DNA of 37,001 nt. It comes from Clostridiales bacterium. Its GTDB lineage: Bacteria; Bacillota; Clostridia; Christensenellales; Borkfalkiaceae. A program made the translations under genes and the position numbers. Where the stretch lies: positions 1-37,001 of the forward strand of contig JAFLVN010000013.1 in assembly GCA_022508285.1 (NCBI GenBank). The letters run 5' to 3'. The notes under the pieces were generated by a model that was not told the origin of the DNA, ran no database searches, and saw only the letters and a list, made by a program, of their open reading frames with translations. This document shows, piece after piece, positions 1 through 11,166 of the stretch. Every line of letters starts with the position of its first letter. Position 1 is the first letter of the stretch.

Positions 1-518
1 CTACCCGTACCGTCGGCGCCCTTTATATTGCCGAGCAAGGTCCATTCGCCGCTTACCTTGTGCCATACGTCCCAGGTGCTGATATTGAGATAGAGGTCTC
101 CGTCTTTACCGTCTACACTACGGGGGTCAATGCTGCCTACAAGCCAGGCGCTACCGTCTTTGCCGGCTGTACCGGGGTTGCCGGGCGCACCCGGGTTGCC
201 CTGCGCACCGGGATCGCCGGGATCACCCTTGTCACCCTTTTCGCCTTTGAGCCACTCGAGGAAGTCGGCTTCGCTGCCCGTATGGCCGTTTTCAAGCCAG
301 ATATCGTATGCGGACTTGCCCTGTGAGCCGGACGACGAGCCCTTTAAGCTATCGAGCCACTCCTGCTCCGTGCCCTGAAAGCCGTTATCTACGGCGATTT
401 CGTATGCTGATTTACCGGCTGCGCCATCGTCGCCCTTCTGGCATGCCGCTAACCCGAACACCGCTGTGAGCGATATAATGCCGCACACTGCGGCAACAAG
501 AAATTTTTTTAATTTCAT
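1..518 (-). CDS. Collagen-like repeat lipoprotein, 3' end outside window
   Basis: This reading frame runs off the left edge of the window, so 172 residues of the N-terminal part are visible. It begins MKLKKFLVAA and has a signal peptide ending in the lipobox LAAC with the lipidated cysteine at about residue 26, so the protein is probably membrane-anchored outside the cell. Two related units follow, each with a KSAYEIAV- or KSAYDIWL-like start and an EWL..LKG end. Then comes a short Gly-X-Y collagen-like tract (about residues 91-116, for example GDKGDPGDPGAQG). The last visible part includes a TWDVWHKVSGEW segment. These units are known from secreted and fibre-like proteins of Firmicutes. An AGGAG ribosome binding site lies just upstream of the ATG. 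The function is not known; a surface fibre or adhesin role is an inference. Confidence 0.85.
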   Translation of the reverse strand, partial: MKLKKFLVAAVCGIISLTAVFGLAACQKGDDGAAGKSAYEIAVDNGFQGTEQEWLDSLKGSSSGSQGKSAYDIWLENGHTGSEADFLEWLKGEKGDKGDPGDPGAQGNPGAPGNPGTAGKDGSAWLVGSIDPRSVDGKDGDLYLNISTWDVWHKVSGEWTLLGNIKGADGTG

Positions 519-555
519 AACATATCTCCTTTAATAAAAATCTATTTCAATAAGA

Positions 556-587
556 AGGAAGTTACATCGTAAACTGAGCAACTTCCT
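556..587. repeat. Inverted repeat in the collagen-like gene leader
   Basis: AGGAAGTT (556-563) and AACTTCCT (580-587) form a perfect 8-bp inverted repeat separated by 16 bases, in the upstream region of the collagen-like lipoprotein gene. It could be an operator or a leader hairpin. No protein partner can be named. Confidence 0.4.
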
Positions 588-631
588 ATCTTTTGTATTT
601 AAATTAATTTTTGACGCAATCCTCCCAAATG

Positions 632-658
632 CGGCATTCCGCATAGAGCGGAATGCCG
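632..658 (-). terminator. Hairpin after the 562-aa secreted protein gene
   Basis: An 11-bp perfect stem (632-642 with 648-658) with a 5-base loop lies about 25 bases after the stop codon of the minus-strand gene. The T-rich stretch on the minus strand comes late and is interrupted, so termination is likely but not certain. Confidence 0.5.
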
Positions 659-682
659 TTTGTAGGAACTGAAATCAAGTTA

Positions 683-2371
683 TCATTCAGCATACACGGG
701 GATTACAACTACGGTGAACTCAACGTAAGTTTCTGCCAAATTGCTGAATTCAAGATTAACATAAGTGCCGTCTTCGGCAACTACGAAAGTACCTACCGTT
801 TCGCCTGCGGAAACAACAGGCATCTCCGAAGTGCTTGCGTTAACCTGAACCTTTGCACCGTCGGGCAGAATGAGGCTTATCTGGTAAGTGCCTTCGGCAA
901 GATCTTCAAGGTAGTACACAACGGAAGACTCGCCGGCAATGGAGATTTTCTTCTCTTCATAGAGACCAAGAGTGTAGTCGGGCATAGGAGTGTTGAGAGT
1001 AACGCCCGCGATGAAGCTTGCGGTGTAGTTTGTTGTGAAGTAGATGGAAGTTTCTTCGGTTATAGTAATCTGCGCATAGCCCCACTCGAGCTCAACAGCT
1101 TTTTCACCGAAGTGAGCGGTTACGGTGTAGCCGCCGAACATAATTTCGAAGGGAATATTTCCAAGGTTGAGGTCGTACGTGCCGGCAGCAACGCTCATAG
1201 CTATAGCTTGAGTGGTTTCTCCCTCTGCAGTTACGGGTACGTAAACGGTGTCCTTATCGAGCTCAAGCGTAGGCTTCTGCCATTTGGATATTTTAAACCA
1301 TGCGTCTGCCGTTGCAGGGGACTCTTTATCCATTTCCCAAGGGGTACCGTTGTAGGCAACCGTGAGGTAATATGTAGTAAACCCTTTCAAATACACAGGA
1401 TAGTCATTGCTCTCAAAGTTTACGCCCGACAAGTTGTTGGGGTCGGTGAGAAGCATATACGAGAACATCGCATTTTCAACGTTTGAATTGGCGCTGAACG
1501 TGTAGTAACCGGCGCTAGTTGATTCGAACTTAAAGGTCTGCTGTTCGTAGATTTTAAAGGTTTTAGCGTTTTTCTCAGAGGTAGGAAGCTTTTCGGTTAC
1601 TTCAATATAGGGTCTGAGCGTTAAGGATACGGTTATAGTAGCCTCGTTGGTAGTGCTCAGCTTAAGGGTTTCGCCATTGGTTAAAGTGAAATCGCCGGCA
1701 TAAGCGAAGTACATATCGGGGTTCAACGTAAGAGCTTCGCCGTTAAACATTATCGAAGCGCCCTCTTCCAAATCATACGTGCTGACTGCAACAATATATT
1801 CGCCGGTTGCGCCGCTGAAAGCTATTTCCTTGGTATCGTTTTTGGAAATGCGGATATCGTTCAGGAAATAATCGTTGAACTCACCGATTCCGAGGGGCAT
1901 AAGATATGCCTGTACTTTAAGGGCATACTCCGAATAGGTACTGAGCGTTACGGTAGAACCTGCGTTTACCGTAATAACGCCCGTGAATGCGCCGAGAGCA
2001 TCATTTTCGGAAAGGAATACCATTCTCGGATTTTTTTCTTCGTCCAAATCGTCGCTTACAGCTGCAGCTAAGTCGATCCAAAGTGCGCCCTCTTCAGGCG
2101 TAACCTTTGCAACGATTATGTACTGACCTGCAGGCACGTTGCTGAGCGTGAGGGTTGCGGGCTGTTCGGCGGTTACGTCAACCGTGGCGCTCTTTTCTGC
2201 GCCGATACCCATTTCACCCGTGCTGACATTGAGTGCATAATTTGAATATGTACCCGTAGCAGCGGAAGCAGTTCTGGAGGGGCTTGCAAGTTTTGCAATG
2301 CCTACTCCACCGAGAAGCATGACAGCGGACACAGCAAGAGCCGCAAACTGTCTGTTCATAGTCTTGTTCAT
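683..2371 (-). CDS. Secreted protein of unknown function, beta-rich repeats
   Basis: The 562-aa protein starts MNKTMNRQFA, has a hydrophobic signal segment (about residues 8-28) followed by a likely signal peptidase site in SRTASAATG, and has no lipobox cysteine. The rest is rich in Thr, Val, Tyr and Glu, with loosely repeated segments of beta-sandwich character (for example LSNVPAGQYIIVAKV and LEDLAEGTYQISLILP). I do not recognise the family, and there is no sorting signal or transmembrane tail, so it is probably released or bound non-covalently to the wall. A strong AAGGAG site precedes the ATG. The gene sits behind a terminator and has its own promoter, which matches the one before the C39-like peptidase gene. 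Co-regulation with the sigma-factor cassette is therefore likely. Confidence 0.85.
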   Translation of the reverse strand: MNKTMNRQFAALAVSAVMLLGGVGIAKLASPSRTASAATGTYSNYALNVSTGEMGIGAEKSATVDVTAEQPATLTLSNVPAGQYIIVAKVTPEEGALWIDLAAAVSDDLDEEKNPRMVFLSENDALGAFTGVITVNAGSTVTLSTYSEYALKVQAYLMPLGIGEFNDYFLNDIRISKNDTKEIAFSGATGEYIVAVSTYDLEEGASIMFNGEALTLNPDMYFAYAGDFTLTNGETLKLSTTNEATITVSLTLRPYIEVTEKLPTSEKNAKTFKIYEQQTFKFESTSAGYYTFSANSNVENAMFSYMLLTDPNNLSGVNFESNDYPVYLKGFTTYYLTVAYNGTPWEMDKESPATADAWFKISKWQKPTLELDKDTVYVPVTAEGETTQAIAMSVAAGTYDLNLGNIPFEIMFGGYTVTAHFGEKAVELEWGYAQITITEETSIYFTTNYTASFIAGVTLNTPMPDYTLGLYEEKKISIAGESSVVYYLEDLAEGTYQISLILPDGAKVQVNASTSEMPVVSAGETVGTFVVAEDGTYVNLEFSNLAETYVEFTVVVIPVYAE

Positions 2372-2494
2372 AAATTTTCTCCTTTTTTAATATTATTTAA
2401 GTTATCCGTTTGCTTCAGCTTGTTCAATTGTTTCAGCTTGTCCAAGGTTGAAACTGCGGATAAACTTATTCCCTTGATTTGTTTCTTTGCCATG

Positions 2495-2526
2495 TATACT
2501 GTAAAAATGCCCCAATCGTACACCCT
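2495..2526 (-). promoter_or_regulatory. Two-box promoter of 562-aa gene, shared with peptidase gene
   Basis: On the minus strand AGGGTGTACGAT (2515-2526) is followed after exactly 14 bases by AGTATA (2495-2500). The same two boxes with the same spacing and an ATTTT in the spacer occur at 4158-4189 before the peptidase gene. This is the pattern expected of promoters read by one alternative sigma factor. The factor encoded at 4176-4712 is the obvious candidate, which is an inference. Confidence 0.7.
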
Positions 2527-2563
2527 GTTTTTAAAAATTTTTTTGAAATTTTAAAATTTTTTA

Positions 2564-2597
2564 TAAAAAAAGGGTTCGACTTGCGGTCGAACCCCTT
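2564..2597 (-). terminator. Strong intrinsic terminator of the sigma/peptidase cassette
   Basis: A 9-bp perfect stem (2572-2580 with 2586-2594) and a 5-base loop are followed on the minus strand by seven T residues. It lies about 25 bases after the stop of the 228-aa membrane protein gene and separates that cassette from the 562-aa gene. Confidence 0.9.
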
Positions 2598-2622
2598 GAC
2601 TTTATTATATATATTAAGTTTT

Positions 2623-3309
2623 TTATCTGTTTGACAGCATAGACTCTACAAGGTCGAGTACGGAATCCTCAGCCATAGGATATCTCAGTTCAATAGAATA
2701 CCTACGATTTAAGTATTCAAAGCATGCCGTTCCTTTATTATTTTTATATTTCCAGCTAACCTTAACAGAAGATATATACTCAACGTTTTCACAAGCTTTT
2801 TCCATGTCTTCAAATACATCAACTTGGGTATACAAATCAGTAATATACAAAATGACTATACTACCAATTTCTCCATTTACTATAGTTTCTTGCAGATAGA
2901 CTACATCTTTATCATCATTGATATTTACAAACAATAGCGTTTCTAATTCATCCGCAATGTTATACCAATCCACATATAGAAGAGACAAATTATTGCGCTC
3001 AGAATATTCTTTGATAGAGTAATCAATAGGGGTTTCTACACAATCTGCCGCATGGCAATAGCGCTCGCTCGGTAAGGCGGTATCCCTGTTGAGAACTATA
3101 GGGAGCACAATTGCAAGGCAGACTGCCGCCACCGCAGCCGAAACACCCGCAAAAATGCGGTAGAACCTTTTATAAGAAAAGGTCGGCTTTTTCTGAATTT
3201 GCTCGGCTTCGGTGGGGAGATTTACTCTCTCCATAACTTTTTTGCGCAGAGCGGCTTTACCTTCGGGATTCTTTTCTTCTATTAACTTGTGGATATTCTT
3301 TTTGTTCAT
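2623..3309 (-). CDS. Single-pass membrane protein, possible anti-sigma factor
   Basis: The 228-aa protein has a charged N-terminal part (about residues 1-48), one transmembrane helix (about residues 50-72, IFAGVSAAVAAVCLAIVLPI) and an outer domain of about 150 residues. The topology, a short cytoplasmic head plus one helix plus an outside sensor, is that of many anti-sigma factors, and the gene belongs to a sigma-factor cassette. No zinc-binding HxxxCxxC motif is visible in the head, so the assignment rests on topology and context. The outer domain contains two cysteines near residues 84 and 90 (RYCHAADCVE) that could form a disulfide. The start follows the peptidase stop by 7 bases with an AGGAG site, so the two are co-transcribed. 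Confidence 0.8.
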   Translation of the reverse strand: MNKKNIHKLIEEKNPEGKAALRKKVMERVNLPTEAEQIQKKPTFSYKRFYRIFAGVSAAVAAVCLAIVLPIVLNRDTALPSERYCHAADCVETPIDYSIKEYSERNNLSLLYVDWYNIADELETLLFVNINDDKDVVYLQETIVNGEIGSIVILYITDLYTQVDVFEDMEKACENVEYISSVKVSWKYKNNKGTACFEYLNRRYSIELRYPMAEDSVLDLVESMLSNR

Positions 3310-3316
3310 AAAACTC

Positions 3317-4126
3317 CTAACTTACGTTAACAATATACGCAGACGATAAATTGTGCGGATTAACTTTATAAAGTGCTGTTTGAGGCACACTCAAGCCTGT
3401 AGCAACATCTAAATACATATCAGTTCTGAATAATTTATTATTACTGTCGTAATAGTTTATCTCATAATAGCCGTAAGCAACCATAATATGCGAACCCGCA
3501 ATATTAATAGTGGTTACGGTGTCGTGGTCGCTATATTCTCCCAAATCGTACACGTCGCCGGCGTGGGATAAAAGTGCGATAACCTTATTATTATTAATTG
3601 CGTTTTTGCACGCCTGATAATCGATACTGCTGCCGCTGACAACGTTTTGCATGCTTACCGAATAGCCCTGACCGTTTATGTAAGCCTTTAACCCGTCAAC
3701 AAATTCCTGCTCGCTGACGCCAACGTCTTTAACGTTCGTCTGCATTAAGTCGTACATCTCCCACATAACCGCAGGAACGTGTACAGAATCCTGCAAACGA
3801 TACAACCCGCTGGCATAATAAGAATTCCAACCGGGAATCATATTATCATAATATTTGTCGTAAAAACCAACAATTGTAGTTCCGGCAACAGCTCCGCAAG
3901 CATTGGTCATCTCACTGACTTGCCTATAATTAGGTGCGCCTCCGGGCGTCTCCTTATAATCAACCGTTCGGTAATTATAATTAATTGTCGTGCTCGCGTA
4001 CGTGGATATGAGCGGTGCGTCGGCATATCTTTCGGCGGTTTGAGCCTGTGCAGTTGTCCTGCCGCCGAAAATCAGTACGCTGATTAACGAGGCGGCTAAA
4101 AGTGAAAGTTTAAGTAGTTTTTTCAT
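3317..4126 (-). CDS. Secreted C39-like papain-fold cysteine peptidase
   Basis: The 269-aa protein starts with a signal peptide (MKKLLKLSLLAASLISVLIF, cleavage probably after TAQAQ). The motif NACGAVAGTTIVGFYDKYY near residues 75-95 corresponds to the catalytic Cys helix of C39-like peptidases. GSHIMVAYGYYEINYYDSN near residues 211-230 supplies the catalytic His and the following Asp/Asn. About 240 residues is a usual size for a free-standing domain of this family. There is no ABC transporter partner, so this is unlikely to be a bacteriocin exporter peptidase. The ATG has a TTAGGAG site and follows a promoter that overlaps the end of the sigma gene. Its target is unknown; processing of the membrane protein encoded next door, or of a surface protein, would fit the context. 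Confidence 0.8.
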   Translation of the reverse strand: MKKLLKLSLLAASLISVLIFGGRTTAQAQTAERYADAPLISTYASTTINYNYRTVDYKETPGGAPNYRQVSEMTNACGAVAGTTIVGFYDKYYDNMIPGWNSYYASGLYRLQDSVHVPAVMWEMYDLMQTNVKDVGVSEQEFVDGLKAYINGQGYSVSMQNVVSGSSIDYQACKNAINNNKVIALLSHAGDVYDLGEYSDHDTVTTINIAGSHIMVAYGYYEINYYDSNNKLFRTDMYLDVATGLSVPQTALYKVNPHNLSSAYIVNVS

Positions 4127-4157
4127 AGTATTTCTCCTAATTAAATTTTTTTGTAAC

Positions 4158-4189
4158 TATACTATGAAAATCAGCCTATCGTACACCCT
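4158..4189 (-). promoter_or_regulatory. Two-box promoter of peptidase gene, inside sigma gene end
   Basis: On the minus strand AGGGTGTACGAT (4178-4189) and AGTATA (4158-4163) are 14 bases apart, matching the pair at 2495-2526. The upstream box is formed by the last codons and stop of the sigma gene (EGVR and TAG), so the peptidase gene can be expressed apart from the sigma gene. The start codon is about 30 bases downstream. Confidence 0.7.
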
Positions 4190-4712
4190 CTTCGATAAAT
4201 TTTTTTAATTTATGTAAAATTCTGTCGATTCGTTTTTTTATCGCATTTTTTGTTACGTTATTCTCTTTTGCAAGTTCTCCGTAGCTATACTCGAAAAAGT
4301 AGTATTTGTATAGCAATTCACGGCTGAACGGGTCGAGCGTATCGAACGCCCTCGATAAATCCAGGTAGGCGTCGTCGAATCTCGAATCCGCTGCGGCTCG
4401 TTGCTTTAAATCGATTTCGGATATTGCAAGCTCTTTGGCGAATTGCTCGTTGTAGTCGTGCGCAACGTTTTCGGTTATCTTGCACATCCAATTATAACCG
4501 TCTTGATTCTCGTCGTAGGAATCGATATACCTAAATATACGCTCATAAGCTTCGGAAACGACGTCGTCGTGGTATGATTTGTCTATCAAATAGTATCTTG
4601 CAACGCCAACCAAGTGGTTGGCAGTACATTCAAATAATTGACCGAACTTTGTAGTATCGCCTCTTTTTATTGCCTTTAATAGCTTATTAACGTCTTTTTC
4701 ATACTTCGACAT
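4176..4712 (-). CDS. ECF-like sigma-70 family RNA polymerase sigma factor
   Basis: The 178-aa protein has the size and plan of an extracytoplasmic-function sigma factor. Region 2 covers about residues 10-90, with DDVVSEAYERIFRYIDSYD resembling the conserved core-binding helix. Region 4 covers about residues 120-175, with a helix-turn-helix SYGELAKENNVTKNAIKKRI that would contact the -35 element. It lies first in a cassette with a secreted peptidase and a single-pass membrane protein. Two promoters with the same unusual boxes lie downstream of it, so its likely job is to turn on the peptidase gene and the 562-aa gene. No clear copy of the two boxes precedes its own start. The ribosome binding site (AGGGG) is moderate. 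Confidence 0.9.
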   Translation of the reverse strand: MSKYEKDVNKLLKAIKRGDTTKFGQLFECTANHLVGVARYYLIDKSYHDDVVSEAYERIFRYIDSYDENQDGYNWMCKITENVAHDYNEQFAKELAISEIDLKQRAAADSRFDDAYLDLSRAFDTLDPFSRELLYKYYFFEYSYGELAKENNVTKNAIKKRIDRILHKLKKFIEEGVR

Positions 4713-4856
4713 TTGTTACCCCTAAGCTTTTTTCAATGTGAGCAAAATCAAAACTGCGCAATTCCTCTAAACAAATTTTATTTATAGACGATTTACACAC
4801 ACAAAATGTTACACAAAATTTAAAAATAATTTATAAAAGGATAAAATTTTTAAGTT

Positions 4857-4957
4857 GATACCGCTTTTTAATCCGATACCGCTTTTTTAATCTGATACCG
4901 CTTTTTTAATCTGATACCGCTTTTTTAATCTGATACCGCTTTTTTAATCTGATACCG
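4857..4957. repeat. Six-copy 19-bp tandem repeat over the rlmD-type stop codon
   Basis: GATACCG starts at 4857, 4875, 4894, 4913, 4932 and 4951, giving a unit of 19 bases (18 for the first) with near-identical sequence CTGATACCGCTTTTTTAAT. The copy nearest the gene supplies its last codons and its TAA stop. There are no spacers between units, so it is not CRISPR. The rest of the gap 4713-4856 is AT-rich and holds nothing else I can name except the presumed sigma-gene promoter. Confidence 0.95.
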
Positions 4958-6443
4958 CCGTCGGGGTTTTGCGGGAAAGCACGACCACCACTTCTGTGTG
5001 CTTTGTTTGAGGAAACATGTCGAACGGGGTGATTGATTTTATTTCGTATGCGGCGGCTTCGGGGTTGTCGGCTTGGGTGTTGCCGGATTTGATGTCGCCG
5101 GTTTTGATGTTGCCGGTTTTGATGTCGCCGGTTTTGATGTCGCCGGTTTTGATGTCGCCGGTTTTGATGTCGCCGGTTTTAATTAGCCCGCCGCCGCTGT
5201 CCTCTGTAAGCGTACCCGTCAAAATCCCCAAGTCTCGGGCGAGAGTTGCGGGGTTGCAGGAGACTAAGATTATTTTGTCTGCGCCCGACTCTTTTATTTT
5301 TTTTACGACCGAGCGCTCCATGCCCTTTCTCGGCGGGTCGCAGACGATTACACGCCTTTTCCCCTCGGTTGCGGCGAACACTTCGTCAAGTTTGTCCTCC
5401 ACCTTGCCGCAGATATTGAACATTTTGCCCTGCAAGCCGTTTTTATCTCTTAGCTCGTTTGCGCAGCGGGAAGCCTCTTCCACAATCTCGACGCCGTACG
5501 CCACTCCGCATGATTTTGCAAGCATGGCGGTCAGCATACCCCCGCCCGAGTACAAATCGATTGCGACTGCGCCGTCCGATTTGGCTTCGGCAAGAACCTT
5601 TGCATACAGTTCGGCACGCACGCCGTCGTTTACTTGCAAAAAGGTATTTGCGCCCGCAGTGTACTTAATTCCCCCTTCTTCCGCCTCAAAAAAGCCTTCA
5701 CCGCGGCATATATGCCACTCTTTTGAAAAAATCACGTTGGTATCGGACGAATTTATATTTAAAAGAAGAGTGAAATTTTCAAAGTGTTTTTCAAGCTCTT
5801 TTCGGAGAAATTCCGTATTTATTTTACGGGTTGCAACAAGCGCAATTATGAATTTACCCTTTATCTCACGCACGACGATATGGCGCAATGTATCGGCAAT
5901 ACCGAGGTTGTCGGCAAAAGATTTAACTGCTTGGATTATTGTTTTTACCCACTCGGACTGAATGAGGCAGTCGCTTACGGGCACTATTCTGTGGCTGTGC
6001 TGTGCGTAAAAGCCGAGCACCGTTTTGCCGCCGTCTACGCCTATGGGCAAGGCGAGCTTATTGCGGTATCTGAATTGGTTTTTGCAAGGCACAACCTCAT
6101 TAACCGGGGCATATATGCCGCCCAATTTTTTTAATGCTCCCTCCACAAGCCCCTTTTTGAAGGCAAGTTGGGCGGGATAATTCATGTGCTGTATATCGCA
6201 CCCGCCGCACTTTTTGAACACGGGGCAGGGCGGCTGTACTCTCTCGGGTGATGCAGACAAAATTTCTTCAACCTTGCCGTAGGCGATATTGTCTTTGACT
6301 TTGAGCGCCTTAAAGCGCACCCTTTCGCCGACAAGACAAAAAGGCACAAACGCCGTTGTGCCTTCTAATTTTATTATTCCCTCGCCCTCTGTGCCGAGGG
6401 CGCAGACTTCGCCCACATATTCGCAATTCTTCTGCATGGTCAT
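4944..6443 (-). CDS. rlmD: 23S rRNA m5U methyltransferase, RlmD/RumA family
   Basis: This protein (499 aa from the start chosen here) methylates a uracil at C5 in 23S rRNA using S-adenosylmethionine. It has an N-terminal TRAM domain (about residues 7-62) and four iron-sulfur ligands, C73, C79 and C82 (in CPVFKKCGGC) plus C159. The methyltransferase domain contains DLYSGGGMLT, VIVCDPPRKGM and SCNPATLARD, with C396 the catalytic nucleophile. The start at 6443 overlaps the stop of the membrane protein gene as ATGA and has AGGAT upstream; a longer frame would overlap that gene heavily and is rejected. Residues 421-454 are a (GDIKT)n tract encoded by a 15-bp minisatellite, inserted before the conserved end (FDMFPQTKHTEVVVVL). 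RlmD, RlmCD or TrmA-like specificity cannot be told apart from sequence reading alone. Confidence 0.9.
   Translation of the reverse strand: MTMQKNCEYVGEVCALGTEGEGIIKLEGTTAFVPFCLVGERVRFKALKVKDNIAYGKVEEILSASPERVQPPCPVFKKCGGCDIQHMNYPAQLAFKKGLVEGALKKLGGIYAPVNEVVPCKNQFRYRNKLALPIGVDGGKTVLGFYAQHSHRIVPVSDCLIQSEWVKTIIQAVKSFADNLGIADTLRHIVVREIKGKFIIALVATRKINTEFLRKELEKHFENFTLLLNINSSDTNVIFSKEWHICRGEGFFEAEEGGIKYTAGANTFLQVNDGVRAELYAKVLAEAKSDGAVAIDLYSGGGMLTAMLAKSCGVAYGVEIVEEASRCANELRDKNGLQGKMFNICGKVEDKLDEVFAATEGKRRVIVCDPPRKGMERSVVKKIKESGADKIILVSCNPATLARDLGILTGTLTEDSGGGLIKTGDIKTGDIKTGDIKTGDIKTGNIKTGDIKSGNTQADNPEAAAYEIKSITPFDMFPQTKHTEVVVVLSRKTPTAVSD
5082..5183. repeat. 15-bp in-frame minisatellite inside the rRNA methyltransferase gene
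   Basis: About seven copies of a 15-base unit (plus strand GATGTCGCCGGTTTT with small variants) encode a repeating KTGDI pentapeptide. Because the unit is a multiple of three, changes in copy number keep the frame open. Confidence 0.95.
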
Positions 6444-6994
6444 TTTCTTATCCTGTAAACCAGCGAATTTATCATTATCTGACATCTGAAAATGAGATAG
6501 TCGTAAACAAAAAAGAAGAGTGCACCTGCTAAGGGAATGATAATATATATGTAGTTTTTTATGGATTGATAGAACTGTGTATTTAAAATTGCTCCGCCTA
6601 TCACTCCGTAAACCATCATAAAGTATCCCGCAAACAGCGTGCCGATAAACCACACCGCCTTTACGGCAAGCGCAAGCCACCTGTTTATTTTAAAGCGTAT
6701 CTGCAATGAGTTTACAAGGGGGTGCAGCCCGAAAAACATTATAAAGGGCACTAAATCCCAAAACTTTGCCGCCGCACCTAAAACGAAAGTAAGAATACAC
6801 GTGCCCGCATACGCTAAAAATCCGCCGAGGTAAAACTGTTTGGATATGGGCACCATAAGCGCAAGTATGCCAACAAGATACCCGAGCGCCAAAAGATATC
6901 CGCTTAAAATGCCGAGCGCAAGAAACGCCGAAGCGACGGCGCAGGATATCGCAGATAATGCTATCTGGAAGGACCTGGAGTACTTGCCCTTCAT
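6440..6994 (-). CDS. Multi-pass membrane protein of unknown function
   Basis: The 184-aa protein is almost entirely hydrophobic, with about five or six predicted helices (for example residues 10-35, 38-52, 55-78, 105-130 and 145-168). Its start (KYSRSFQIALSAISCAVASAF) and the GGFLAYAGTCILTF segment resemble small substrate-binding membrane components (S components) of ECF transporters or related integral membrane proteins, but I cannot name a family with confidence. It lies three bases after the J-domain gene stop and overlaps the methyltransferase start by four bases, so it is part of the trpS operon and is probably translated by coupling. No strong ribosome binding site is visible of its own. 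Confidence 0.8.
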   Translation of the reverse strand: MKGKYSRSFQIALSAISCAVASAFLALGILSGYLLALGYLVGILALMVPISKQFYLGGFLAYAGTCILTFVLGAAAKFWDLVPFIMFFGLHPLVNSLQIRFKINRWLALAVKAVWFIGTLFAGYFMMVYGVIGGAILNTQFYQSIKNYIYIIIPLAGALFFFVYDYLIFRCQIMINSLVYRIRK

Positions 6995-6997
6995 AAT

Positions 6998-7618
6998 TTA
7001 TCTGCAACAGCCGTTGCAAAGACAGCTCACGCACATATAGGTATAGCAACAGTTTATACAGTTTTCGCAAAAACCGCCGCCCATCTGGTCCTGACGAGGG
7101 TCGCTATCCATTGTTTGACCCCGATACTGACTGTCGTAACCGTTTTGATTTTGGTTTGCATTAAAATTTATTTTATCGTTGAGCTTGCGGTAGGCTTCCT
7201 TATATTTATCGTTATCGGGCTCGAGCTGAATTGCTATTTCAAGCTGCTTTTTGCTCTCGTTTATCCAGTTTTTGCGATAAAATATTACGCTCTGCAAGTA
7301 GTGCCAGTAAGCGGTGCGTTCGTTGAATGAGTCCATAATGCGCTGCGCTTCCTGAAGATCGCCCGCCTTTAAAAGCTCCTCTACACGTGCAAACGACGCT
7401 CCGCCGTCCTCCGCCGCCGCATCCTCGTTGAACTCGGTCATAAGCTCGTTATATGCAACTTCGATTTTGGTGAGCATCTTTGCCGCATTGTTGCCCGCTT
7501 CGCCCTCAAGAAATCTGTCTTCGAGATACTTTGCCCTTAAAGCTTCGTACGCCGATTTAATTTCCTCCGCCGAAGCGTTCTCGGAAAGCCCCAAAAGTTC
7601 AAGATTCTTTTTGTTCAT
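6998..7618 (-). CDS. J-domain-like protein with TPR segment and Cys-rich tail
   Basis: The 206-aa protein begins with a J-domain-like fold (MNKKNLELLGLSENASAEEI, about residues 1-65). The HPD tripeptide that activates DnaK is not present where expected (KYLEDRFLEG), so it may not stimulate Hsp70 in the usual way. A TPR-like pair follows (about residues 75-145, ending LEIAIQLEPDNDKYKEAYRK). Then comes a Gln/Asn/Gly-rich linker, and the last 24 residues hold nine cysteines in CxxC and CC patterns (FCENCINCCYTYMCVSCLC), suggesting metal binding or lipidation. It overlaps the DUF5685 gene end by 20 bases and has an AAGGAGC site. Pairing with DUF5685 is a familiar arrangement in Clostridia and implies a joint role that is still undefined. 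Confidence 0.85.
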   Translation of the reverse strand: MNKKNLELLGLSENASAEEIKSAYEALRAKYLEDRFLEGEAGNNAAKMLTKIEVAYNELMTEFNEDAAAEDGGASFARVEELLKAGDLQEAQRIMDSFNERTAYWHYLQSVIFYRKNWINESKKQLEIAIQLEPDNDKYKEAYRKLNDKINFNANQNQNGYDSQYRGQTMDSDPRQDQMGGGFCENCINCCYTYMCVSCLCNGCCR

Positions 7619-8477
7619 TACAAGCTCCTTTACAATTGCCGCATTTTGCGTAAATTTCCCTCGATTTCAAGGGAATACCCCGCAGAATTATATTGTCGGT
7701 CAAGTCGTGATTGAAGTGAAATTTTATGTTTGCAAGGCACTCCCGCATATCTGCAAAGAGCATATCGAAGATAAACTTTATCTCCCCGCCATTTGATTTA
7801 ACGGCTTCCGCCTTGCTGTTTTGCCCGCACGTATTGAAAATTACGTTGTATCTGCCCTTCTTTACGTCCTTATCGTAGTCGTCGAGGGCGTCAATTAAAT
7901 ATACCCATTTACCTATGCTGTAAAACAGTTTATCGGTATACGCCGTGGCAACCCCGCCCAAAAGTATGCGGGAAACGCTCCGCATCATCAGCGCAGTGGG
8001 CTCAGCCGCCTCGTCGATTATCTTGCAGCCCGCCGCCTCCAGCTCCGCCTGCTCACGCATGTATTCGCCTATTATTCCCTTTATTTCGGGAAAACGCTTT
8101 ATTGCCCGCTTATACCCTTTTTTATATAAATGCCGCAGAACGGCTTTTTTGTCGCCGTCCCGCTTGTCGTCGCACAGTTTATTGTATGCGAGAGCCGTGT
8201 TCACACAGCCGAGGGCAACCGTCAAATCGTCCGTTTTTGCTATGGGGCGGCGCTTAAACCAATGAAGTACACACCGCTTTTTTTCTATAATTACGTCCTC
8301 GCCCCGAATATTATGAATGAGCGCAGAAACGAACGCCATATCGTATGTGAGCGCCGTGCGAGCCCGCTGCCCGCAACCCTTGCCTATACTTTTGCACAGT
8401 CCGCAGTAGACCGCCTGATACAGCTTTTCGTCCTTTTTGAAGAGATACGGCGTATCCGGAGCAATGTAACCGAACAT
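7599..8477 (-). CDS. DUF5685 family protein
   Basis: The 292-aa protein begins MFGYIAPDTPYL and has YCGLCKSIGKGCGQRAR followed by TYDMAF, which I recognise as the DUF5685 signature. A segment IDALDDYDKDVKKGRYN near residue 190 resembles an acidic metal-binding motif of all-alpha prenyl-synthase-like folds; this likeness is only an inference. The C-terminus has a CGNCKGAC metal-site-like cluster. It is largely helical with no signal peptide, so cytoplasmic or membrane-peripheral. It starts 12 bases after trpS with an AAGGGAG site and overlaps the J-domain gene downstream. The biochemical function is unknown. Confidence 0.85.
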   Translation of the reverse strand: MFGYIAPDTPYLFKKDEKLYQAVYCGLCKSIGKGCGQRARTALTYDMAFVSALIHNIRGEDVIIEKKRCVLHWFKRRPIAKTDDLTVALGCVNTALAYNKLCDDKRDGDKKAVLRHLYKKGYKRAIKRFPEIKGIIGEYMREQAELEAAGCKIIDEAAEPTALMMRSVSRILLGGVATAYTDKLFYSIGKWVYLIDALDDYDKDVKKGRYNVIFNTCGQNSKAEAVKSNGGEIKFIFDMLFADMRECLANIKFHFNHDLTDNIILRGIPLKSREIYAKCGNCKGACNEQKES

Positions 8478-9693: not shown

Positions 9694-11166
9694 TTACTTT
9701 ACAAATTCCAGAACTTCGGCAAACAGCTTTTTAGGGTCAACTGTCTTTGTGAAGCGGGCGGGCATGTCCCTGAGTGCAGAAATGCACTTGGGCACTTTCA
9801 TTGCCGTTGCCGCATGCAGGCGTTTTACGCCCTTGAAACTGTCTTTTACATCGTTACCCGTTACGGCGTACAGCACGTCCTGCGGAAACTTGTAGGGATT
9901 CGCCGTGGAGACGATAACCATATTCGTTTCGTCTTTTTTGTTCTTTTCGAACCAGTCCTGCGCCACCTTCATTGCGCAACCGGTGTTGGTATCCATCGTA
10001 TAGCCGACGTCGATAAACACGTCGTACATAGCCTCGACAGAGGTCTCCTCGCTTGCAAAGCCGCCGTCGAAAGTCTTTTGGATTTCCGCAAGCTCGGAGG
10101 GCGTGATTTCGTACTTTAAGTCGTCCTTTAAAGACTTCATTCTCTCTGCCGTGAGAGCGGCGTCTCTGCCCGAAATTTCGAATATAAGCCTCTCTATATC
10201 GTAAGCTATGAGCATGTCCATAGAGGGCGAAGTGGTTTTTACTAATTCACGGTGAATATCGTACACTCCCGTGGATAAAAAGTCGGCGAGGGTATTGTTG
10301 AAATTGCTTGCGCAGTGTATTCTTCTTATAGGCAGACCCATTCTCTTAGCGTAGTATGCGGCAATCACGTTGCCGAAATTGCCTGCGGGCACGGTGAAGT
10401 CAATTTCCTCACCCATCTCTATCTGACCGCCCGAAACGAGGTCGAGATATGCCGAAAAATAGTATGCAATCTGCGGAGCAATTCTACCGAAGTTTATCGA
10501 GTTTGCCGTGGAGAGTATTACGCCCTGCTTTTTGAGCTCTGCGGCGCCGTTTACCAAAATATCCTTAACCGCCGACTGGCAGTCGTCGAAGCTGCCCCGC
10601 ACTGCCACCACGTTTAAGTTGTCGCCGTCCTGTACGGTAAGCTGGAGCTTCTGCATTTTTGAAACGCCTTCGGCGGGATAGAACACCAAAACCTTTACGC
10701 CTTCAACATCCTTAAAGCTTTCAAGCGCAGCTTTGCCCGTATCGCCCGAAGTTGCTACAAGTATTAAAATCTGCTCCTTCACGCCGCACGTTTCCGCACT
10801 CTTCTTAAGCAAATAAGGGAATATTGCAAGCGGAATATCCTGATAACCTAAGGTGGGACCGTGCCAGAGCTCAAGCATATAAATACCGTCGTCAAGGCGG
10901 ACGAGGGGCGCAGGGTCTTCCCCGAAATCAGCGTAAACCTTTTCGCACTCTTTGATAAGCTCCTCTTCGTCCAAGCCGTCGAGGTATTTCATCAATATTT
11001 TTGCTGTGCGGTCGGAATAGCTTGTTTCGAGCATGGCTTCAAGCTCCCCAAGCGATACCTCGGGGAATTTTTCGGGCACGAACAATCCTCCGTTTTCGGC
11101 AAGCCCTTTTAATATGGCTTGGGCAGCCGTAACCTTTTCACCGCCCCTTGTACTTACAAAATTCAC
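9694..11166 (-). CDS. thrC: Threonine synthase-like protein lacking the PLP lysine
   Basis: Threonine synthase converts O-phosphohomoserine to threonine with pyridoxal phosphate. The 490-aa protein has the full family length, the N-terminal FVSTRGGEKVTAAQAILKGL, the phosphate-binding loop VATSGDTGKAALESFKDVEG and the normal C-terminus. The GTG start at 11166 follows an AAGGAGAGG site by six bases and gives the family-typical MNFVSTRG; the longer frame is rejected. The odd feature is the active-site segment WHGPTLGYQDIPLAI. The family has FKD here, with the lysine that forms the Schiff base, while this copy has Gln at residue 109 (codon CAG at 10840-10842). Either the enzyme has lost or changed its activity, or a one-base error or mutation is present. 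Confidence 0.9.
   Translation of the reverse strand: MNFVSTRGGEKVTAAQAILKGLAENGGLFVPEKFPEVSLGELEAMLETSYSDRTAKILMKYLDGLDEEELIKECEKVYADFGEDPAPLVRLDDGIYMLELWHGPTLGYQDIPLAIFPYLLKKSAETCGVKEQILILVATSGDTGKAALESFKDVEGVKVLVFYPAEGVSKMQKLQLTVQDGDNLNVVAVRGSFDDCQSAVKDILVNGAAELKKQGVILSTANSINFGRIAPQIAYYFSAYLDLVSGGQIEMGEEIDFTVPAGNFGNVIAAYYAKRMGLPIRRIHCASNFNNTLADFLSTGVYDIHRELVKTTSPSMDMLIAYDIERLIFEISGRDAALTAERMKSLKDDLKYEITPSELAEIQKTFDGGFASEETSVEAMYDVFIDVGYTMDTNTGCAMKVAQDWFEKNKKDETNMVIVSTANPYKFPQDVLYAVTGNDVKDSFKGVKRLHAATAMKVPKCISALRDMPARFTKTVDPKKLFAEVLEFVK

Follow-up and report, generated by a model that had tools for sequence, protein, structure and literature searches.

The stretch analysed here (hereafter referred to as the window) comprises 37,001 nucleotides (nt) of DNA, positions 1 to 37,001 of the forward strand of contig JAFLVN010000013.1 in assembly GCA_022508285.1 of a Clostridiales bacterium (GTDB lineage Borkfalkiaceae). 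It carries, before a gene for a C39-like peptidase and before a gene for a 562-amino-acid (aa) protein, two copies of a two-box site that are probably promoters of the extracytoplasmic function (ECF) type served by the neighbouring sigma factor; a putative membrane anti-sigma factor would hold that sigma factor in check, a second sigma factor would act above it in a cascade, and its duplicated relatives would each serve a private cassette. The locus is transcribed from the minus strand in the order ECF sigma factor, C39-like peptidase, anti-sigma-like protein, hairpin and 562-aa protein, with the following features:

4786..4813, minus strand: promoter-like site of the sigma gene itself, of the ECF-A type described below, TGTAACATTTT-N12-CGTCT, 73 nt before the ATG
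4176..4712, minus strand: gene for the ECF sigma factor (ECF-B), 178 aa, with sigma-70 regions 2 and 4 only (Pfam, TIGR02937)
4158..4189, minus strand: promoter-like site upstream of the C39 operon, AGGGTGTACGAT-N14-AGTATA, which runs over the stop codon of the sigma gene
3317..4126, minus strand: gene for the C39-like (papain-type) cysteine peptidase, 269 aa, signal peptide by eye
2623..3309, minus strand: anti-sigma-like gene, 228 aa, one transmembrane segment, its putative role judged from position and conservation
2569..2597, minus strand: terminator-like hairpin of 12 pairs with a T-rich tail, the anti-sigma-like gene upstream and the second promoter-like site downstream
2495..2526, minus strand: second copy of the promoter-like site, upstream of the 562-aa gene, recognised by sequence match and learned-motif rank
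683..2371, minus strand: gene for the 562-aa protein, signal peptide by eye, likely a surface protein and regulon member

A preliminary description of this DNA, made from the sequence alone, had proposed that an identical two-box promoter precedes two genes and defines a small regulon of the local sigma factor. A scan of the window recovered AGGGTGTACGAT-N14-AGTATA as exact at 2495-2526 and 4158-4189, both on the minus strand, with the ATTTT block of the spacer common to both sites and one copy lying, as described, within the 3' end of the sigma gene, where it covers the last bases and the stop codon of 4176-4712(-). This copy ends 31 nt 5' of the ATG of the C39-like gene, and the other, downstream of the hairpin, ends 123 nt 5' of the ATG of the 562-aa gene. 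The two 32-mers are identical at 26/32 positions and their flanks at 22/40 positions upstream and 18/40 downstream; a copied block as the source of the 12-nt identity was rejected, the flanks being unlike and no long copied block being present. A third match in the window (10238-10269) has 3 mismatches and falls within an unrelated open reading frame (ORF), and 100 shuffles of the window gave a mean of 0.05 matches and at most 1. The setting is larger than two genes, as the C39-like and anti-sigma-like genes look co-transcribed and the genome has paralogous cassettes (described below).

In the window genome (G000; 1.47 Mb, 97 contigs), the core motif TGTACGAT-N14-AGTATA has 10 matches with up to 2 mismatches, as compared with 4 for the reversed-pattern control, and only two are exact, both being the window sites. 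Thus, the motif is not scattered at random through the genome. The claim of housekeeping-type promoters before several other genes of this stretch fared poorly, with 17 sigma-70-like matches in 1-8000 against a shuffle mean of 13.2. Among the four genes of the locus, the sigma gene alone looks like that of a DNA-binding regulator: its product scores 33.6 bits against Sigma70_r2 (cut-off 24) and 30.9 against Sigma70_r4 (cut-off 24.1) of Pfam and 64.3 against TIGR02937 (cut-off 42.9), and the best solved-structure match of the sigma family profile is SigW. The promoter that this sigma factor would recognise consists of a -35 box around TGTACG, a gap of 16 nt and the -10 box AGTATA.

The same pairing recurs with other letters in genome G020, which has by eye the same neighbouring genes as the window and whose sigma factor is the sister of the window sigma in the tree (support 83/88). 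A homologue of the 562-aa protein (745 aa, 50% identity) occupies the same place. The window letters are missing from G020, yet the C39 gene and the counterpart of the 562-aa gene there are preceded by one shared two-box site: 23 matches to the pattern TAGTGAAAC-N15-YCCGTAT occur with up to 3 mismatches, of which two are exact, one 5' of the C39 gene and the other 5' of the 745-aa gene. The G020 boxes, TGAAAC-N17-CGTAT, are of the AAC/CGT type. Thus, the specificity has changed while the pairing has stayed, as expected if the local sigma factor reads the site, and the proposal of a regulon gains support from the genome-wide rarity of the motif together with the arrangement kept in the orthologous locus.

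The locus belongs to a wider family of operons. A peptide-pattern scan derived from the C39 alignment identified 44 loci in the contigs of 84,980 species, all of them in metagenome-assembled genomes titled Clostridia, Clostridiales, Eubacteriales, Bacilli or with Candidatus names. When these loci were combined with those from the same genus and the same family and duplicates removed (L079-L081, L103-L106, L109 and L112-L115 being excluded from the counts), a family sigma gene directly followed by a C39-like or an anti-sigma-like gene was present in 42 C39-bearing loci. The usual gene order is sigma, C39, anti-sigma; G070 shows the exceptional order C39, anti-sigma, sigma, and no C39 gene is seen between sigma and anti-sigma in G030 and G281. 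Matches to the anti-sigma-like profile at E 1e-12, with up to 7 candidates per genome being scored, occur in 17 of 398 family genomes, 16 with one and the window genome with seven, the window's own anti-sigma-like gene, unscored in this count, being the eighth in G000.

In many of these loci, inspection by eye reveals a two-box site 5' of the C39 gene, often right where the sigma gene stops. The motif learned from 44 C39 upstream regions, the window being left out, reads TGGAMAAA-N14-RGTATATAT, with a log-likelihood of 159 as against 38-50 in six shuffled sets (8 starts for each shuffled set, 30 for the real one), and the best sites score at least 7.5 in 31/44 regions. It is a mixture and assumes one site per region; L122 was dropped from the set, and L120 and L043 (G070, with the other gene order) were never in it. 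On the window, with a spacer of 14, it places the 562-gene site 2nd among 73,942 positions. The motif picked the wrong site in L038, for which a TGAAAC site was set by hand as the query in the search for second sites, and misread L086, L088, L089, L092, L093 and L116, where a TAAAC...GGTATAAG-like pair lies nearer the gene by eye. With sites scoring below 7.5 excluded, 33 of 45 queries were kept for that search (L086 and L116 among them), and the site of the locus itself turned up again elsewhere in it (at least 20 bits) on the operon strand in 9/33 loci, L086 included, and on the other strand in 0/33. The genes behind the second sites encode, by eye, secreted proteins in the window, G020, L071 and L085 and a metallo-hydrolase-like protein in L084, while L072, L083, L086 and L091 have small or unclear genes, or none close. 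Two related-looking metallo-hydrolase-like proteins (by eye; 383 and 386 aa) are encoded near sigma loci at L084:2588-3739 and L040:4859-6019. Housekeeping-like promoters (at least 10 of 12 positions) are present within 110 nt of the sigma gene in 15/42 loci. In L071, L084, L085, L090 and L091, a promoter of the TTGACA-N17-TATAAT type (11-12 of 12) ends 6 nt short of the start codon of the sigma gene, suggesting that its mRNA is leaderless.

It could be argued that a separate DNA-binding activator or repressor uses the 12-mer AGGGTGTACGAT as its operator, with the housekeeping sigma factor using weak -10 boxes behind it, as a 12-nt identity exceeds the need of an ECF -35 box and AGTATAGT in the C39 copy contains TATAGT. 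However, the spacing agrees with that seen in the paralogues described below and in the two-box sites that precede C39 genes elsewhere, canonical TGAAAC and CGTAT boxes occupy the same place in G020 and the sigma factor is the sole candidate regulator encoded in the locus. An operator of this kind is therefore considered improbable.

The sigma gene of the window appears to be under a promoter of another type. The site TGTAACATTTT-N12-CGTCT upstream of it has a counterpart, TGAAACATTTT-N12-CGTCT, upstream of the G020 orthologue, and is of the promoter type of ECF-A, a second and distant ECF sigma factor of the same genome (G000:C23:11109-11645). The ECF-A gene forms an operon with C39-like and anti-sigma-like genes (G000:C23:11109-13548; L220), in which TGTAAC-N17-CGTCTA lies over the ECF-A stop codon, 5' of a C39-like gene with 31% identity to that of the window. 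A search of the 350 nt before each sigma gene located the ECF-A type site without mismatch in 2/42 loci, namely the window and G020, with at least 4 mismatches in the other 40. ECF-A matches are present in 11/93 genus genomes, that is, G000 and 10 others. On visual inspection, TGTAACATTTT followed at 16-17 nt by CGTC marks the sigma stop codon in G067, G072, G074, G079 and, with its first base changed, G068, and G019 and G066 have altered forms of it; the ECF-A match in G073 is followed by another gene, and the sites in G071 and G026 are unreadable there. The ECF-A operon with this promoter type at the sigma stop recurs in several relatives (loci L225-L236). The 15-base ECF-A pattern of G000 is also found, with 1 mismatch, before a gene whose 694-aa product has by eye a signal peptide and, with 2 mismatches, before that for a 567-aa lipoprotein, the scan of G000 as a whole being unenriched (15 matches versus 11 for the reversed control). 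We infer that ECF-A may drive the window sigma gene in a two-step cascade, perhaps linked to defence, in which ECF-A would switch on the window sigma gene and the supply of sigma factor in the window lineage would depend on it.

Six paralogous cassettes, each consisting of a sigma gene, an anti-sigma gene and a gene for a lipoprotein of about 750-970 aa, are present in the window genome on contigs C7 (twice), C10, C18, C21 and C23. Their sigma factors (45-53% identity) form one clade with support 100/96, and, unlike the window sigma, all six have a motif common to the regions upstream of the sigma and of the effector genes. The promoter-like sites that pair the sigma gene with the lipoprotein gene of each cassette read, as two boxes:

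C7a: GGTTAACG...CGTAGA
C7b: GGTTAACA...GGTTRA
C10: GAAACG/GGAACG...GGTATT
C18: GCAACG...GGTARA
C21: GTTGACG...GGTAGA
C23: GGTTAACA...GGTAGG

The paralogue boxes thus contain AAC or GAC at -35 and CGT or GGT at -10. With a composition-weighted two-box score, the true pairing of sigma and effector regions in the six cassettes is the best of 720 permutations; this score replaced unweighted matching, which was set aside as chance AT-rich matches blur it. Among 300 shuffles for each cassette, none gave as good a pair score for four cassettes, one did for C10 and three for C7b. Two patterns pooled from the sites of five of the six cassettes (not C7b) have 6 and 4 exact matches in G000, all at cassettes, and 13 and 12 matches when one mismatch is allowed. 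At its end, contig C19 carries an eighth anti-sigma-like gene followed by a lipoprotein gene, before which yet another pair, GGTATACG...GGTATC, is seen by eye. The large lipoprotein genes on C7, C10, C18, C19, C22 and C23 have further lipoprotein genes, of two different kinds, behind them. In the clade of the window sigma (10 sigma factors), the residue after K in the recognition helix of region 4 tracks the -35 letters, KV occurring with GTTAAC, KM with GTTGAC, KS with an AAC box and KN, in the window, with GTGTAC, a correlation among ten related sequences that does not prove causation. These observations are consistent with a duplicated sigma/anti-sigma unit that would have diversified such that each cassette reads a private promoter before its own sigma and lipoprotein genes.

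A genome with six such paralogues, 45-53% identical, in addition to ECF-A offers other ECF sigma factors by which both window sites might be read in place of the window sigma, and some cross-talk among SigI paralogues is reported (PMC6056542). Against this, the exact motif is confined to its own cassette for five of the six paralogues, the promoter type of ECF-A is a different one (TGTAACATTTT/CGTCT) and the region-4 helix of the window sigma is by eye the most divergent of the seven, so that recognition by one of these relatives is hardly to be expected. Chance, or a recent local copying without function, is a highly improbable source of the shared motif, the pair score of the C39 and 562-aa gene sites being equalled in 2/1000 shuffles (0/1000 for the G020 pair) but the flanks being unlike, the same arrangement recurring with other letters in G020 and the paralogues, and both copies lying at plausible promoter places, one of them behind a terminator-like hairpin.

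Several observations weigh against the two sites being ECF promoters served by the adjacent sigma factor, which we consider probable all the same. The pair score just mentioned is, by itself, not astronomically rare. Positive autoregulation is usual, though not required, for ECF sigma factors, and autoregulation of the window sigma gene through the pair motif was rejected, its upstream region being without the motif. A search of G020 for ECF-A at E 1e-15 gave no match. The learned motif ranks the C39 site only 56th of 73,942 positions with a spacer of 14 and, with spacers of 13-16, the two window sites 9th and 259th of 295,764. The 9 loci with second sites compare with a cross-locus expectation of 2.85 matches, the remaining 24/33, including G066 and G073, show no second site, and those of L086 and L091 have no gene close behind. 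With the unweighted two-box score, the true pairing of the cassettes is equalled by 2/720 permutations, and the site upstream of the C7b sigma fits the effector region of C23 (24.0) better than its own (21.9). The 8 by 8 permutation result (1/40320) owes part of its strength to a match in the window that is unlike a promoter, and reliance is therefore placed on the 6 by 6 test. Lastly, the window boxes, with TAC at -35 and AGT at -10, depart from the hallmark of ECF promoters, AAC at -35 and CGT at -10, a hallmark that is not strict (PMC8103513).

The genes behind ECF-A type sites were surveyed in six genomes, picked for holding ECF-A or the window locus and not at random, with the defence genes not labelled beforehand. 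The ECF-A pattern with up to 1 mismatch has 17 sites, about 1-2 being expected from a scaled-down control, and in 12 rounds a Markov model of 262 kb of the fetched sequence yielded 0 matches this close. Once 2 mismatches are allowed, the pattern is not enriched over its reverse (45 versus 40 matches), and weight is therefore given to the close matches (0-1 mismatch) only. Five of the 17 close sites belong to ECF-A's own C39 operons and two to the window sigma and its orthologue; four precede loci of defence families (three recognised by PADLOC and one through Pfam only) and two weaker candidates, one a secreted protein, one a 190-aa familyless protein, and two are without a plausible target. 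The defence-family loci and the weaker candidates are as follows:

L273:1059-4875 (G079): GajA and a UvrD-like partner (Gabija), PADLOC E 1e-197
L272:4198-7799 (G074): a broken TIR-like gene, then ThsB and a TIR-SLOG protein, ThsB with PADLOC E 4e-46
L274:2237-4162 (G079): a TIR-SLOG protein, divergent from ECF-A itself, Pfam LD_cluster2 E 3e-16
L268:6578-7994 (G020): an FRG protein, PADLOC candidate PDC-S15 E 8e-34
L275:1038-5630 (G072): a 630-aa familyless protein, then an NB-ARC/TPR protein (weaker)
G000: an Mrr-like fragment at a contig end, below cut-off (weaker)

The TIR-SLOG protein divergent from ECF-A in G079 has no PADLOC match. A further site in G000, with 2 mismatches, precedes a gene for an OLD-like ATPase (PADLOC E 9e-26). 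A tentative and rather doubtful extension is that ECF-A heads a defence-inducing, envelope-sensing unit of sigma factor, C39 peptidase and anti-sigma factor for the anti-phage systems of the host (Gabija, Thoeris-like TIR/SLOG, FRG, NB-ARC and Mrr), with the window sigma re-dressing the cell surface through its promoter pair. If this link holds, one envelope-sensing sigma factor would control several unrelated phage-defence systems, and the paralogous cassettes would represent separately switchable surface coats. Among the matches listed in a literature search on sigma factors and phage defence, there was no ECF sigma controlling these systems outside the CRISPR-linked CASP/Calp.

The name C39-like for the peptidase draws support from its relatives and its fold, the window protein itself having no match to PF13529 at E 1: 12 of 39 aligned proteins match that family at E up to 0.1 (best 2.7e-5), and C77 and H213 are invariant in 39/39 aligned sequences. 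The predicted structure (pLDDT, a per-residue confidence measure, of 93.2) has papain-fold proteases as its top Foldseek matches, which are weak (best E 4.4e-3, none below 1e-3), with query TM-scores that are low as well, 0.34-0.43 in the eight rows at the top. The anti-sigma-like transmembrane protein adjoins the sigma factor and is conserved together with it across the loci, and is thus predicted to be its cognate anti-sigma factor. Its model (mean pLDDT 85, poor at the N-terminus) comprises short N-terminal helices, a long helix (49-76) that is taken as the transmembrane helix and a well-predicted outer alpha/beta domain, for which the fold search gave no convincing match. No Pfam match above cut-off was obtained for it, and a sequence search of solved structures returned nothing convincing for either protein. 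An anti-sigma zinc-finger domain was found neither in the window protein (Pfam, E 1) nor in 40 aligned proteins (E 0.1); the latter show no RsgI domain at E 0.1, and DUF4179 has a weak match in 1/40 (E 0.072).

In the proposed working, the membrane anti-sigma factor would hold the sigma factor until a signal from the envelope frees it, either through release of the anti-sigma factor or through its cleavage, for which the C39-like peptidase or some other protease might be responsible. Free sigma factor would then transcribe the C39-like peptidase and anti-sigma genes, thereby closing a feedback loop, as well as the separate gene of the 562-aa surface protein. The nature of the signal is a matter of guesswork, as is the suggestion that the peptidase might act on the outer domain of the anti-sigma factor or on surface proteins.

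Other features of the window include a 19-bp tandem array of 5.9 copies (4847-4958), which separates the sigma gene from its upstream neighbour, and a 15-bp repeat of 6.9 copies (5078-5180) in the 3' end of an RNA-methyltransferase-like ORF (4944-6680, minus strand), where it encodes repeated KTGDI peptides. Collagen-like Gly-X-Y stretches are seen by eye in lipoprotein-like genes at 1-519 of the window, minus strand, and at L034:9260-10429, the latter protein matching Pfam Collagen at E 3e-5, below cut-off.

ECF sigma factors paired with membrane anti-sigma factors are familiar from Bacillus, as in SigW/RsiW, SigV/RsiV and SigP/RsiP. The window locus resembles these pairs in its sigma factor of regions 2 and 4 only, the adjoining membrane anti-sigma-like gene and the small two-box regulon, and differs from them in the C39-like peptidase gene placed between the two, in an anti-sigma-like protein below the Pfam cut-offs, in the TAC/AGT promoters and in a sigma gene that is not under its own motif. 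RsiP is reported to undergo site-1 cleavage by a signal peptidase, and DUF4179 is the domain named in RsiV (PMC8844934). A literature search found no paper on a three-gene unit of sigma factor, C39-like peptidase and anti-sigma factor; such a unit is described here, with a window anti-sigma-like protein that reaches no Pfam cut-off.

The SigI/RsgI systems of Clostridium thermocellum, as reported in PMC6056542 and PMC10575876, similarly comprise many paralogous pairs (36-45% identity) in one genome, with distinct promoters, limited cross-talk and secreted proteins under their control. SigI, however, reads the -35 element with a domain unlike sigma-4 (PMC10575876), whereas the factors described here are ECF sigmas with sigma-4, and RsgI belongs to another family; the six copies here form one clade in a 1.47-Mb genome, and their outputs are lipoproteins without an assigned role. 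One small genome here offers a ready-made set of duplicated sigma factors, each matched to promoters that differ from those of the others, in which the co-change of sigma and promoter specificity is directly testable. In CASP (Csx29-Csx30-CASP-sigma) and CalpL/CalpT/CalpS, as reported in PMC10028731 and PMC11417357, a protease answers a CRISPR signal and cuts an anti-sigma factor. Those systems, which are linked to phage defence, differ from the present unit in that its peptidase, of predicted papain-like fold, seems to be exported and its anti-sigma factor seems to be located in the membrane, and share with it the three-part composition of protease, anti-sigma factor and ECF sigma factor.

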